Of a DNA stretch of 36,685 bases, positions 217 through 17,366 are shown one piece after another. Within the stretch, counting starts at the first letter, position 1; every line of letters begins with the position of its first letter. A model generated the notes under the pieces. The model saw nothing but the letters and a program-made list of their open reading frames with translations, ran no database searches and was not told the DNA's origin. The position numbers and the translations under genes were made by a program. The stretch comes from a virus. Location: the IMG/VR virus record IMGVR_UViG_3300006790_002367, positions 1 through 36,685 of that record; one strand, written 5' to 3'.

Positions 217-630
217 ATGAAAGTAACTTTGAAAATTGAAAAAGAATATGACGCTGTTTATCTAGGCGCACAATGCGAAGTTCGCTATTGGGAAGATGCG
301 AAGGTTAATGGTGTTGAAGATGAAAATGGCGACCTTATCCCATGCCGTTCTGGCGACACTTGGGAGCCTAAAATAAGGCTAGAAGACGGAAAAATAATGA
401 ACTGGAAAGACGGTGTATCCGCTGAAATCCATTACAAAGTATGTGATGCGGGTGTTTACATGCTTCTTGACGGTGCGGAGGATTTAATTGTCGAAAAAGA
501 TGGTTATGTACCTTCTATGATGTGCCCAGAAGGAGGCGGTTACGGCGACTACATTATCATGAATGTAAATGCAGACGGCATGATTGATAAATGGAAAGCT
601 GATTTTGACGATTTTCAAGAGGAAGACTAA
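217..630 (+). CDS. Acidic hypothetical protein
   Basis: A 137-residue, strongly acidic protein: by my count about 32 Asp/Glu against 14 Lys/Arg, ending in QEED. Glycine-rich turns and alternating hydrophobics suggest a mainly beta fold. A good ribosome site (AAGGAGAAGAG) lies just upstream of the ATG. No signal peptide, membrane segment or known motif is seen. It precedes a structured non-coding block. The charge would fit a soluble DNA-mimic-like or moron protein, but that is only a guess. Confidence 0.75.
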   Translation: MKVTLKIEKEYDAVYLGAQCEVRYWEDAKVNGVEDENGDLIPCRSGDTWEPKIRLEDGKIMNWKDGVSAEIHYKVCDAGVYMLLDGAEDLIVEKDGYVPSMMCPEGGGYGDYIIMNVNADGMIDKWKADFDDFQEED

Positions 631-636
631 CACCCA

Positions 637-888
637 GCGGACGGTGATATGTCCGCGCTATTATGGGGGCTGTAGCTTAAATGCCTAGGGGTAATCAATG
701 CGACATCCCGAAGTCTAGTTGGGTAATGCCATAGACCGCCCCCACCAATAGCCCCTTGCATGGAGTGCATCTGTTCCCGTTAGCGGGTGTACTCCATGGA
801 ATGGGTAAACTGTGCAGATGGCAGAGGGCTAAGCGGGATTCGTCACCCGTGAACACCGAGAATGACAATATCTCTGGTCTCGCCCTGC
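637..888 (+). ncRNA. Candidate structured RNA (unclassified)
   Basis: This gene-free block contains several stems that can be read directly: GCGGAC 637-642 with GTCCGC 651-656; GGGGGC 665-670 with GCCCCC 738-743, enclosing GGGGT 688-692/ATCCC 705-709 and GTCTA 713-717/TAGAC 732-736 (a three-way junction); CATGGAGT 759-766 with ACTCCATG 791-798, enclosing CCCG 776-779/CGGG 784-787; CATCTG 768-773 with CAGATG 815-820, which would be a pseudoknot; and GCA..GGGC 821-829 with GCCCTGC 882-888, enclosing CGGG 834-837/CCCG 846-849 and ACC..AGA 855-861/TCT..GGT 871-878. GGGTAA occurs three times (689, 721, 803). It matches no RNA class I can name. The strand is inferred from the flanking plus-strand genes. 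Confidence 0.42.
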
Positions 889-915
889 CCCGTTCCAACC
901 ATTAACGCCTACGGG
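889..915 (+). promoter_or_regulatory. Leader hairpin before the 930 gene
   Basis: CCCGT (889-893) can pair with ACGGG (911-915) around a 17-base loop. It ends four bases before the AAGGAG ribosome site of the gene at 930. There is no T-run after it, so it is not an intrinsic terminator. It may simply be the last stem of the preceding structured block or a translational leader. Confidence 0.3.
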
Positions 916-929
916 CAGAAGGAGATTTT

Positions 930-1139
930 ATGTGTGAAGAGTTAGAATATAGCCGTGATCTACATAGGGCTATCGAGTCTTTTAAAAAATTAAAAAACCT
1001 ATCAACGCATGACCCATTTTTGGAAGTGTATTCTGATAACAACCGATTAGTTGCAAGAGTAAGTGAAGCAGACTTTGATTTAGTCATTGCCGCCGCTGAA
1101 AAGATAATTTTCGAACACAAACCAAGGATTGAACCATGA
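930..1139 (+). CDS. Small hypothetical protein
   Basis: A 69-residue protein with a helical N-terminal half and a C-terminal segment (SEADFDLVIAAAEKIIFE) of alternating acidic and aliphatic residues. The start is supported by AAGGAG located 7 bases upstream. Its TGA overlaps the ATG of the next gene (ATGA), indicating translational coupling. No known domain recognised. The gene sits directly downstream of the structured block and may be cotranscribed with it. Confidence 0.65.
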   Translation: MCEELEYSRDLHRAIESFKKLKNLSTHDPFLEVYSDNNRLVARVSEADFDLVIAAAEKIIFEHKPRIEP

Positions 1140-5323: not shown

Positions 5324-5689
5324 TTATTCCTCCATTGCTTTGTTAAAGGCGGTTTCTAAATCTTCGATTGTATCGAATGCCTGGGATGAAAGCGCGGCTT
5401 CCACGGCAAAGCATTTCTGTATATGCGTTCCCACCGCTACGGCCACGGCTGATACTTGTTCTGGCGATAAGGTCACAAATCCTTCGGGTGTTTTCCACTT
5501 GATAGAAATACCGAGTTGCTTGGCTCCAAGGATATTGGCACGGCTAGCGGGATCTGTTTGTATCTTTATGCCATTGATCTCAATACCGCCTGTCTCGACC
5601 TTATAGCGGTATGCGGATAGGTGGTTATCGATTTGGCTTCTTAAATTCCGTGCGTCTTCTAAATCACGCTCTTCTTGTGTCATTGGCAT
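5324..5689 (-). CDS. DUF4376-type tail-fibre assembly protein
   Basis: 121 residues. The central part (VETGGIEINGIKIQTDPASRANILGA) follows the DUF4376 pattern, a domain found in phage tail-fibre assembly chaperones and proteins next to fibres. The N-terminus is a charged helix (EERDLEDARNLRSQID) and the C-terminus is helical. It lies directly after the tail-fibre gene, the expected place. The likely role is assisting folding or attachment of the fibre. GGAAAG precedes the ATG. Confidence 0.65.
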   Translation of the reverse strand: MPMTQEERDLEDARNLRSQIDNHLSAYRYKVETGGIEINGIKIQTDPASRANILGAKQLGISIKWKTPEGFVTLSPEQVSAVAVAVGTHIQKCFAVEAALSSQAFDTIEDLETAFNKAMEE

Positions 5690-5701
5690 GTCATAACTTT
5701 C

Positions 5702-7774
5702 CTAGGTTTTTGTTATTCCGTATAAGTAAAATTCTGCGCTTAATATGTTACCAGTGGCGAAAAATATTCTCAGCGCATTCACATCAGATTGCGCAAGACG
5801 TATACCTGTACCGCCTACGTTAGTTATGTTGGCGCTTTGATTGAGTTGCGTTCCAGATATATCAAAATACGTATATTCAGCATCGGAAGGGGCTAAAATT
5901 TTAATTGTGAAATTAGATAACTCACCAGTTGAATTACCATTTCCAAGGGCGCTTAATTTTATAAATGAATCCGCCGCATCACTACTGATAGAGGGGTTAG
6001 CATCACCCTGTACAGAGAAGGTTGAAACCCAAGCATAATCCGATGCACCGCTATCAAATGTAGAGCCGTCTGTAGATGTCCTCATTTGTAAGGGAGTATT
6101 ATCATTCTGAGATTTTACAGAGACACACTCCAAAATATACAAATCATAAGTTCCATCAATCGCAGCATCTAAGTCTAAACCAGAGCCGATATCGACACTC
6201 GTATCGCTGCTTGCTGTATAGGAACCCAATAATACAACTCCACCCCCGTTACCATCAACATAAGCCTTGGTAGCCGCATCCTGATCGTTTTCGGGATCTG
6301 CAACGTCCACTATCTTCTGTGAGTTTACTGATACGCTTGCCGTGGCTCCTGCGAGGGCTGCGCGGGTAATAGCGTCTTGGGTTGCTTCACTCAGGGCATC
6401 GCCATTGTCTATGTCTTTAAAAAGACCCAAATCTAACGCCGTTGGTGTTGCTGCGCTTGCGCCTGATACCGTGCCTGCCACGCCTTGCGCGCCCTTAACG
6501 CCTGATACTGTGATTTTCCAATCATCCAATGTTCCAGAGCCGCCAACGCTTGTGACTTCCACGGTTAAATCCGTACCAGAATACGCCGTGACTTGGCCAT
6601 GCATATAATTAGTTTCGTCTGCATCACTTGCGATTAAAACGAAAACGCCAACATCAAATAGCTTGCCCGCTTGAGTGGTAAAAGCCTTTGATCCTGTCGC
6701 GATTTCTACACTTGTTGTAGAGGTGCCTGATAGTCTGGCCGCGCTTAGGGCTGCTGCTGCTTCGCTGGCTGCTGCGTTTGTTTCCGCTGTCTCCGCGTTT
6801 GTCTCGGCCAGTTCTGCTGCTGTCTGTGCTGTCTCGGCTAGTCCTTGGGCTGTTTCCGCTGCTGTCTTTGCCGCGATAGCATCATCTGCCGCAACCTGAG
6901 CCGCGCCCGCTGCGCCAATCAATGAGAATGGCGCTCGAACCTTAATATTATTATTCCCGCTTGCAGGGGGAATTGTGAATGTTAAAGCCGTACCGCTTAC
7001 CGTATAGAAGGACGGGTCTATCAGATCAATACCACTGACCTCGCGAATGCTCACATCATCCAGTGTTCCAGTAAAGCTTGATGTACCGAAGGAGATAGTT
7101 TGAGTAGACCCCGCAATGATTGTCTCGTGATACGTGCCTGATGCGCTTCGAGCAGTCCCAGCCGTACCGCCGAGGGATAAAGTAATACTACCTGCGCTTC
7201 GTGTGATTGTGTAGGTTACAGAATAAGGCTTGCCCTCGATAAGTGTGAGCGTAGAGGATTGCTCAATAGCGGTAGAGATTGCCCCCGTTGCCGTGGCTGT
7301 ACCTGATGCGATTGTCCAACCTGTGCCTTTTGTCCAATCCGTATCGGCTGCGAATGTACCGTTTTTAACGCATTCCAACTCCGCAGAGATAAATAGGGCT
7401 TTTTCGTCATTACCGAGATTCTCGGATAAGGTGAAAGACGTCTCGATGCCATCCCCCGAGAATGATTGAAAGAACCCCTCATTAGTCTCGGTGGCCGCAG
7501 AGAACGCCGTTACGTTGTCCGTGGTGCCGTTGTCTATATCCGCATCGTTTACATCACGTAAAACGAACTTATACGCCCCTGTAAGGAAGATAATCGCCCG
7601 CCCCGCTGCATCCAGAATAATCGGGTTTGTGTGGGATACATTACCCGCCGCTGTTGTATACGTGTCCTTAGGCGTAGAAGTACCCGCTGCATAGGTGTAT
7701 AGCTTGCCGTATGATAAAGGATTACCGTCATCGTCTAGGGCCTGGAAGTAGTGCTGTGTGAAAAGTACTGCCAT
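5702..7774 (-). CDS. Tail fibre with podoviral N-terminal anchor
   Basis: 690 residues. Residues 1-90 (ALDDDGNPLSYGKLYTYAAG, then TNPIILDAAGRAIIFL) match the common podoviral fibre or spike head-binding domain. Residues about 104-282 form a beta domain (FSGDG..TSFTLS ... FYTVSGTALTFTIPP) interrupted by a carbohydrate-binding-module-like insert at about 136-247. An alanine-rich coiled coil (AETAQ and AETNA repeats, 290-348) leads to a distal beta region with a TKAYVD trimeric-fibre element. It probably binds the host surface along with the separate esterase tailspike. Preceded by an intrinsic terminator and GGAGAAATC ribosome site. Confidence 0.82.
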   Translation of the reverse strand: MAVLFTQHYFQALDDDGNPLSYGKLYTYAAGTSTPKDTYTTAAGNVSHTNPIILDAAGRAIIFLTGAYKFVLRDVNDADIDNGTTDNVTAFSAATETNEGFFQSFSGDGIETSFTLSENLGNDEKALFISAELECVKNGTFAADTDWTKGTGWTIASGTATATGAISTAIEQSSTLTLIEGKPYSVTYTITRSAGSITLSLGGTAGTARSASGTYHETIIAGSTQTISFGTSSFTGTLDDVSIREVSGIDLIDPSFYTVSGTALTFTIPPASGNNNIKVRAPFSLIGAAGAAQVAADDAIAAKTAAETAQGLAETAQTAAELAETNAETAETNAAASEAAAALSAARLSGTSTTSVEIATGSKAFTTQAGKLFDVGVFVLIASDADETNYMHGQVTAYSGTDLTVEVTSVGGSGTLDDWKITVSGVKGAQGVAGTVSGASAATPTALDLGLFKDIDNGDALSEATQDAITRAALAGATASVSVNSQKIVDVADPENDQDAATKAYVDGNGGGVVLLGSYTASSDTSVDIGSGLDLDAAIDGTYDLYILECVSVKSQNDNTPLQMRTSTDGSTFDSGASDYAWVSTFSVQGDANPSISSDAADSFIKLSALGNGNSTGELSNFTIKILAPSDAEYTYFDISGTQLNQSANITNVGGTGIRLAQSDVNALRIFFATGNILSAEFYLYGITKT

Positions 7775-15248: not shown

Positions 15249-16502
15249 TTAACCCGCTGCGCGAACCGCCCATTCATCTGCTCGAACAGGTGCTAAGCCA
15301 GCAAGAATATCAAAGCGCATGATGCTCTCGGATGTCTTGATGTCAAAACCACGCAATGCGCGTACTGAAATACCATCAACGGTTTCAGTCGCCGCGAAAT
15401 CCATACCCTTTGGTGTATACAAAGGAACAGATACAAAGCGGAATGCGTCTTTGTGGTAGCAGAGGTTTTGCTGGTAGGCCGTGGAAGCGTTACCGAAGAA
15501 TGTCAGTGTGCCTGTTTCATCAACAGGTGCAGCTGATACATTCTGACGTGAGTCGGTGGATGTATAGTAAATCGCTGGGGAAATCTTCAGTGTTACAGAG
15601 TTACCAGCGGTTTCAGTTACATCTTCCGTTACAGTGAACTGCTTCAAGTTAGGCAAAGCCTGCTTTGTCAAAGGATGGACATCATACACTCCAGCAATAG
15701 TAAATACTGTACCGCGTGTGATTGTCGCACCTGAACCAACGCCATCAACACCCAGCGTTGTCATCCCATTAGAGATAGCAACAACAGAGGCCTCAACCGC
15801 GACGCCAGATACATCGGCACCATTTGTGAAAGTCGGCAAAAGATTAGAGCGCAGATAAGTGAAGCCCTCTCCAACGCCGATAAAGCCTTTCTTATAGATT
15901 TTAGCGATTTCTTCTGATGATTGGAATTGACCCTTACGAGCATTTGAAGTTGCTGTATTTGTCTTTGGGTTAATCATTGCAAAAAGCTGATCATCTTCTG
16001 GTGCTAAGTTTTCAAACAGTCTTTCACCAGCTTCTAAGAACTGGGCGATAGAGCCAGATTGAACGCCCGCAGTACCGACAAGGTTAGAGGTCAAGGCGCA
16101 AGCCTTCTCTAGAGCCCACTGATCCATATTTGCAGCTAAAGCATTCATTGCGGGAGCAACAAACTCGTCATTCCAATACTTGATTGGTTTGTCATATGCT
16201 GTTTCCAGAGAGTTCATCTTGAAAGACACATTGGCTAGCTTATCAAGTACAAGAGCTACCTTCTCTTGCTTTACGTCTTCCATTGAGGACGTAATATCAA
16301 GTGTTGAACCAACAGAGAATTTTGTGGGCTTCTTGATATAAACAGTATCGCCCGGGCTTGCGGACTCATACTGCTTGCGGAAAGTGGCATCGTCTTCTTT
16401 AGAGATAGAACGAATGAACTTTGCTTTTTCTTTAAGGTGTGCCGCAACGAGCTTGGCTGTTACACCGGGCGCGTTCTTGGCGGTTAATACTTCATTTGAC
16501 AT
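15249..16502 (-). CDS. P22-type major coat protein
   Basis: 417 residues, close to the 430 of P22 gp5. The opening (NEVLTAKNAPGVTAKLVAAH) and segments FRKQYESASPGDTVYIKKP, VALVLDKLANVSFKMNSLE and YWNDEFVAPAMNALAANMD follow the P22 coat family, with HK97-fold N-arm, E-loop and a central insertion domain. It forms the icosahedral shell around the scaffold. It has its own GGAGAAAATAA ribosome site immediately after an intrinsic terminator. Confidence 0.9.
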   Translation of the reverse strand: MSNEVLTAKNAPGVTAKLVAAHLKEKAKFIRSISKEDDATFRKQYESASPGDTVYIKKPTKFSVGSTLDITSSMEDVKQEKVALVLDKLANVSFKMNSLETAYDKPIKYWNDEFVAPAMNALAANMDQWALEKACALTSNLVGTAGVQSGSIAQFLEAGERLFENLAPEDDQLFAMINPKTNTATSNARKGQFQSSEEIAKIYKKGFIGVGEGFTYLRSNLLPTFTNGADVSGVAVEASVVAISNGMTTLGVDGVGSGATITRGTVFTIAGVYDVHPLTKQALPNLKQFTVTEDVTETAGNSVTLKISPAIYYTSTDSRQNVSAAPVDETGTLTFFGNASTAYQQNLCYHKDAFRFVSVPLYTPKGMDFAATETVDGISVRALRGFDIKTSESIMRFDILAGLAPVRADEWAVRAAG

Positions 16503-16515
16503 TTATTTTCTCCAT

Positions 16516-16537
16516 AAAAAAGCCCCAGAAAGGGGCT
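16516..16537 (-). terminator. Intrinsic terminator before coat gene
   Basis: Minus strand: AGCCCC/GGGGCT stem with loop TTTCT, then six T leading directly into ATGGAGAAAATAA, the coat ribosome site. Second copy of the terminator-plus-ribosome-site module. Confidence 0.85.
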
Positions 16538-16544
16538 GTTGTGT

Positions 16545-17354
16545 TTAAGAAACGGAGGCGAGTAATTCGTCTGCCGTCATGCTGTTGATGTCCTTTGAAG
16601 CCTTACCAGTGCCTTTTGCTCCCTTGAGTGGGGCAGGCGCTTGTGTTGTGGGCTTCGTAAGGTATTTCTGGCCTGCGTACTCCGCTCTTGCTACGGCCAT
16701 AGCGGCTTGAGTCGGGCTCATGCTCGCAAGGCTTTCAAGCTCTCCGGTCTTAACGAGGTGATAAAGGGCAAGTGCGCCTTGATCTGCCTCTTGGATGGCT
16801 TGGGCTACAAATGGGGGTAGGTCTTCCAGTGCTTCTCCGCCGCTTTGAAAAGCCATAGCGGCATCGGGTATTTTCTGTGATAACTCTTGGGCTTGCGTTA
16901 CAACGGTTTGAACCTGTTGTTCTGCGTAGAGTTTCGCTCGAAACTGTTGCTCCAATTGCTCTTGGGATAGTGGCTGCTCACCTTGTGGCTGCCTGCCTTG
17001 TTGAGCTTGATACTCAATTTTGGCGTTGATGAAATCCATTACGGAATCAAATTCATCTTCTTTTGGTGGTTTAGGTGCTTTGAATGCTTCAAGCTCCTTG
17101 CGCGTTGCTTCATATTGCTCACGCTCTTGTTGCTGCTGACGCTTAAACTCCTTAAACTGGTGCTTCTGCTTTTTCGCGAGGTTGCTTACAGTCTTGTACT
17201 GTTGCTGTATTTCTTCATAGCGGGCTTTGTAATCCACATCGGATTCGCCCTCCTGTTGCTCCTCGGCAGCGTTTTCTTCGTTAGGGGTTTCGGTTTGCTC
17301 GACTTGTGGCTGCTCCGCTTGGGCTTCCACCATTTCGGCTACTTCTTCAGACAT
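16545..17354 (-). CDS. Scaffolding protein
   Basis: About 269 residues from the ATG at 17354. The frame is open to an ATG at 17366, but that ATG is part of the ATGGAGAAA ribosome-site module shared with two other genes. The sequence is highly charged, Glu/Gln/Lys-rich and coiled-coil (YEEIQQQYKTVSNLAKKQKH, EFKRQQQQEREQ), with an acidic start and a basic C-terminal part (APLKGAKGTGKASKD), as in P22 gp8, which uses a basic end to bind coat. It lies between portal and coat as expected. Leaves the procapsid during DNA packaging. Confidence 0.83.
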   Translation of the reverse strand: MSEEVAEMVEAQAEQPQVEQTETPNEENAAEEQQEGESDVDYKARYEEIQQQYKTVSNLAKKQKHQFKEFKRQQQQEREQYEATRKELEAFKAPKPPKEDEFDSVMDFINAKIEYQAQQGRQPQGEQPLSQEQLEQQFRAKLYAEQQVQTVVTQAQELSQKIPDAAMAFQSGGEALEDLPPFVAQAIQEADQGALALYHLVKTGELESLASMSPTQAAMAVARAEYAGQKYLTKPTTQAPAPLKGAKGTGKASKDINSMTADELLASVS

Positions 17355-17366
17355 AGATTTCTCCAT

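Follow-up and report, generated by a model that had tools for sequence, protein, structure and literature searches.

The question raised by positions 631-929 of the virus record analysed here is whether a gap of about 300 bases between two small phage genes encodes a structured RNA and, if so, what that RNA would do. The record, referred to as the window at its full length of 36,685 bases, belongs by gene content to a temperate P22-like podovirus. It encodes P22-type coat and portal proteins and a Terminase_3 large subunit, and an integrase gene is also present. As the integrase ORF terminates at the last base of the window and the first gene begins at base 1, the record is probably a provirus that was cut to gene boundaries.

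The locus and its neighbouring genes

The genes on either side of the block were assigned as follows.

217-630, plus strand: upstream gene, an ORF of 137 aa from a widespread phage family of unassigned function
930-1139, plus strand: downstream gene, an ORFan of 69 aa
919-924, plus strand: Shine-Dalgarno AAGGAG of the gene at 930, read from the sequence

A first-pass annotation had described the interval as a gene-free block between plus-strand genes, and this description held. Both flanking genes are on the same strand, and none of the three ORFs inside 631-929 matched a PHROG. The minus-strand ORF was additionally scanned against IMG/VR, where no relative was found, and a protein-coding gene within the block was rejected on these grounds. 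The G+C content of the block was 54% compared to 41% in the flanking genes; together with its length, this is unusual for such a compact genome. Structured bacterial RNAs have been both sought and found in long GC-rich intergenic regions, at least in the one study drawn on here (PMC8723152).

The 137-aa product of the upstream gene had 194 relatives in IMG/VR, and no Pfam or PHROG model matched it. Its core (RYWED, HYKVCD, GYGDYII) is strikingly conserved across phages that differ widely in G+C content. The 69-aa product of the downstream gene had no relatives in the phage records or IMG/VR, and when the two genes downstream of the block were tested in the collections searched for them, neither had any.

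Folding of the block

The predicted fold consists of the following parts.

637-656, plus strand: 5' hairpin of 7 bp (637-643 with 650-656), pair probability 0.98
657-752, plus strand: multi-branched domain, closing-stem probability 0.96-0.99, domain z -1.75
753-805, plus strand: long hairpin (753-757 with 800-805; 759-775 with 782-798), seen in the fold and as an inverted repeat
768-820, plus strand: 768-773 complementary to 815-820 in the sequence, as a pseudoknot or as an alternative pairing that rivals the long hairpin
820-889, plus strand: possible second three-way junction, from suboptimal and constrained folds; z -0.96 for 820-894
878-925, plus strand: helix (878-890 with 913-925) covering the Shine-Dalgarno of the gene at 930, an inverted repeat with a probability of ~0.8

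Comparison with shuffled sequence, which the first-pass annotation had named as one way to disprove its reading, showed the whole block to be more stable than the shuffles. The plus strand of 637-915 had a predicted fold of -108.3 kcal/mol (z -3.0), which one shuffle in 200 equalled, and ranked second by z and second by energy among the 262 genome windows of 279 nt. Folding of the minus strand was weaker (z -2.2). At least eight complementary stems had been proposed; nine perfect 6-bp stems were counted in 637-915 against 4.3 +/- 2.0 in shuffles, and nine or more were reached in 51 of 2000 shuffles and in 5 of 381 other pieces of the window.

Most of the stability signal was contributed by the hairpin at 753-805 (z -6.4 for 752-808, with boundaries picked after folding), the other main source being the multi-branched domain, closed by 6+7 bp (657-662/747-752 and 664-670/738-744). 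This domain contains two good inner hairpins, 688-709 and 713-736. Of the two three-way junctions that had been claimed, the second, closed by 820-829 with 882-889 and carrying hairpins 833-850 and 855-877, folded no better than chance. For the suggested pseudoknot, the complementarity is present (CATCTG/CAGATG); however, it would form at the expense of the long hairpin, in which 759-775 is paired. The hexamer GGGTAA was found three times as stated, at 689, 721 and 803, but when the window was divided into 381 pieces of equal length, 172 of them had some hexamer at least three times, and the triple occurrence was rejected as a motif.

By these predictions the block is strongly foldable but short of a proven RNA architecture, since it was not outstanding at the 120-nt scale (best z -2.2), the second junction was at the level of chance and the GGGTAA repeat was of a usual kind.

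Search for relatives

No Rfam 15 family matched the block at the curated gathering threshold, and nothing relevant was found in 600-960 when the search was relaxed to E 10. At the nucleotide level, no match was found among phage and plasmid records. Three DNA patterns from the block were run against IMG/VR; one gave 13 hits lacking extended similarity and two gave zero. The translated minus-strand frame, aimed at diverged DNA, likewise retrieved nothing from IMG/VR. The whole records of 23 relatives contained no counterpart, and a 14-nt match in one of them (G011) was rejected because it sits within a reading frame. Single-sequence covariance models of 655-808 and 820-894, run against the retrieved sequences that share a related terminase or a related upstream gene, matched the window alone; the one extra match in the window, 749-848 on the minus strand, is the self-complementary hairpin.

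The sole host lead was an Alteromonadaceae MAG contig whose terminase is 65% identical, so the genome searches that followed this lead may have targeted the wrong group. About 760 genomes were searched in total. The block had no counterpart in 397 genomes of the family of this MAG, the only one with a related terminase, when searched by DNA, and no relative in 369 genomes of its class when searched by covariance model. Contigs L051 and L052 showed a short match only, and that in L051 was rejected as lying inside a host reading frame. Three contigs (L023-L025) encode terminases 98-100% identical at the protein level, and none of them covers the block locus. Conservation of the block could thus not be demonstrated from the available sequences, and it stands as an orphan candidate represented by one sequence.

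The empty searches lend some weight to a rival reading, in which the block is a spacer, gained recently or diverging fast, that happens to fold well through its long hairpin and G+C-rich sequence and has no RNA function. This would also fit the absence of an outstanding signal at 120 nt and the finding that 16381-16659, within coding sequence, folds better still (z -4.9). It is less easily reconciled with the whole-block z of -3 and the nine perfect stems, or with a length and G+C content so out of keeping with a compact genome.

Acceptor-like stems followed by ACCA, at 664-670/738-744 and at 797-803 with 892-898, could indicate a degenerate tRNA or tRNA-like element. Such acceptor and NCCA pairs occur 0.28 times per 300 nt across the window, however, and neither a canonical T loop nor a canonical anticodon loop was present. 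ARAGORN reported none, with low-scoring candidates appearing only at lowered thresholds, and Rfam tRNA was absent even at E 10. A tRNA or tmRNA gene was rejected, as no cloverleaf with canonical loops was found by ARAGORN, including its relaxed settings, or by Rfam, and a degenerate remnant is highly improbable.

Hairpins behind relatives of the upstream gene

Among the genes related to 217-630, the closest is carried by L005 (IMGVR 3300032272_000014), which is AT-rich and matches Cellulophaga phages. It is followed by a G+C-rich folded block of 286 nt (5421-5706, z -5.8) with the paired core boxes CTACAAC/GTTATAG and inner boxes GCTCACG/CGTGAGC, as in integron attC sites. This block was not matched by the single-sequence models from the window. 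Two further relatives are also followed by long imperfect hairpins. That at L110:1450-1640 has attC-like paired core boxes in the same relaxed test, whereas that at L079:1920-2090 fails it. All three contigs are AT-rich phage contigs. Short inverted repeats ending in AAC/GTT were also seen in several other gaps of L005:300-6000 and are suggestive of cassette-like borders.

These hairpins, together with the attC-like boxes in L005 and L110, raise the possibility of a DNA-level element, in which the block would be a recombination hairpin or cassette border working as folded single-stranded or cruciform DNA. The block resembles an attC site in that a small accessory gene is directly followed by a long imperfect hairpin. 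It differs in having no core boxes: paired RYYYAAC/GTTRRRY boxes were absent from 600-960 even in the relaxed test, a loose one that gave 43 hits across the 36.7-kb window, and an integron attC site was accordingly rejected there. No target-site repeats were noticed either, and a DNA-level element is considered improbable. Travel of the block with the upstream gene was also rejected, as among the best 80 relatives fetched a folded block of similar size follows the gene only in L005, a contig identical to L114.

Pairing of the Shine-Dalgarno region

Three observations bear on a role in translation: the fold potential of the block, two mutually exclusive pairings of one strand at its 3' end and the high predicted cost of exposing the ribosome-binding site of the gene at 930. 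The last helix, 878-890/913-925, covers the Shine-Dalgarno, and its strand 882-889 (GCCCTGCC) can pair alternatively with 820-829. The competing pairing arises because 820-828 (GGCAGAGGG) is a direct repeat, nearly copying the Shine-Dalgarno region 914-922 (GGCAGAAGG). Opening of the ribosome-binding site costs 9.5 kcal/mol, second of 37 genes (median 4.0). Burial to this degree is only modestly unusual, being reached in 17 of 200 cases when the local sequence was shuffled and in 16 of 100 when the full leader was. Holding 913-925 single-stranded costs ~13 kcal/mol in the predicted fold, and the open state is far from the optimum.

From this modelling of one sequence, the block may be a cis-acting folded 5' leader in the accessory-operon transcript, with its last helix burying the Shine-Dalgarno of the ORFan. 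Because the burial statistics are modest, this leader model is put forward with only limited confidence. It would involve an untranslated spacer, transcribed within the accessory-gene operon of the P22-like prophage and working in cis on the small ORFan gene at 930, whose Shine-Dalgarno would be hidden by helix 878-890/913-925. As the masking strand has two exclusive pairings, refolding towards 820-829 could open or close translation, as could the action of a ribosome or factor on the helices further upstream. Transcription, switching and any trigger are those parts of the model that we infer. The better folding of the plus strand relative to the minus strand and the shared strand of the flanking genes are consistent with a leader.

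Neither a promoter scoring above chance nor a plus-strand intrinsic terminator was found in the block, and membership of the operon transcript is therefore the simplest view. The same two absences count against a separate trans-acting RNA, a phage small RNA binding host or phage RNA or protein through a folded body at 637-805. Although both of the best helical domains lie within 637-805, distant from the next start codon, a conserved single-stranded seed is not definable from one sequence, and this reading is regarded as unlikely. The leader model was ranked first, closely followed in likelihood by a foldable spacer without function, and the trans-acting RNA third.

Comparison with known systems

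As a leader, the block is similar to ribosomal-protein leaders and translational riboswitches in being a long structured stretch before a start codon, with an anti-Shine-Dalgarno strand that has two possible partners. Unlike them, it has no known ligand- or protein-binding domain, no Rfam match and no relatives, and the function of the gene is unassigned.

GOLLD, ROOL and similar RNAs are orphan structured RNA candidates of phages, and what defines each of these classes is covariation across many homologues. The block is comparable in being a multi-stem RNA candidate of a temperate phage, located beside small genes, but is much shorter and known from one sequence. It is rather improbable that this sequence represents a first-seen phage RNA class, with a multi-domain fold and a rearranging 3' part, that regulates the downstream ORFan or acts in trans; nothing found lifts the reading of an undescribed class above other orphan foldable spacers. 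Should the block function as an RNA, it would join the many structured RNAs of temperate phages that still await description, and its pairing may have two states. Being a lone sequence with no relatives found, it changes no view yet, and serves as a lead for when related prophages are sequenced.

Other folded regions of the window

Around the coat-protein gene, the plus strand (antisense to the gene) folded about as well as the block or better, with z -4.9 at 16381-16680 and z -3.1 at 15401-15679. By far the costliest ribosome-binding region of the 37 genes, at 16.8 kcal/mol, was that of the minus-strand gene 16545-17366 (CTGGGGGCTTTTTTTTATG), where the region around the start at 17366 looks like an overlap with the end of a terminator hairpin.
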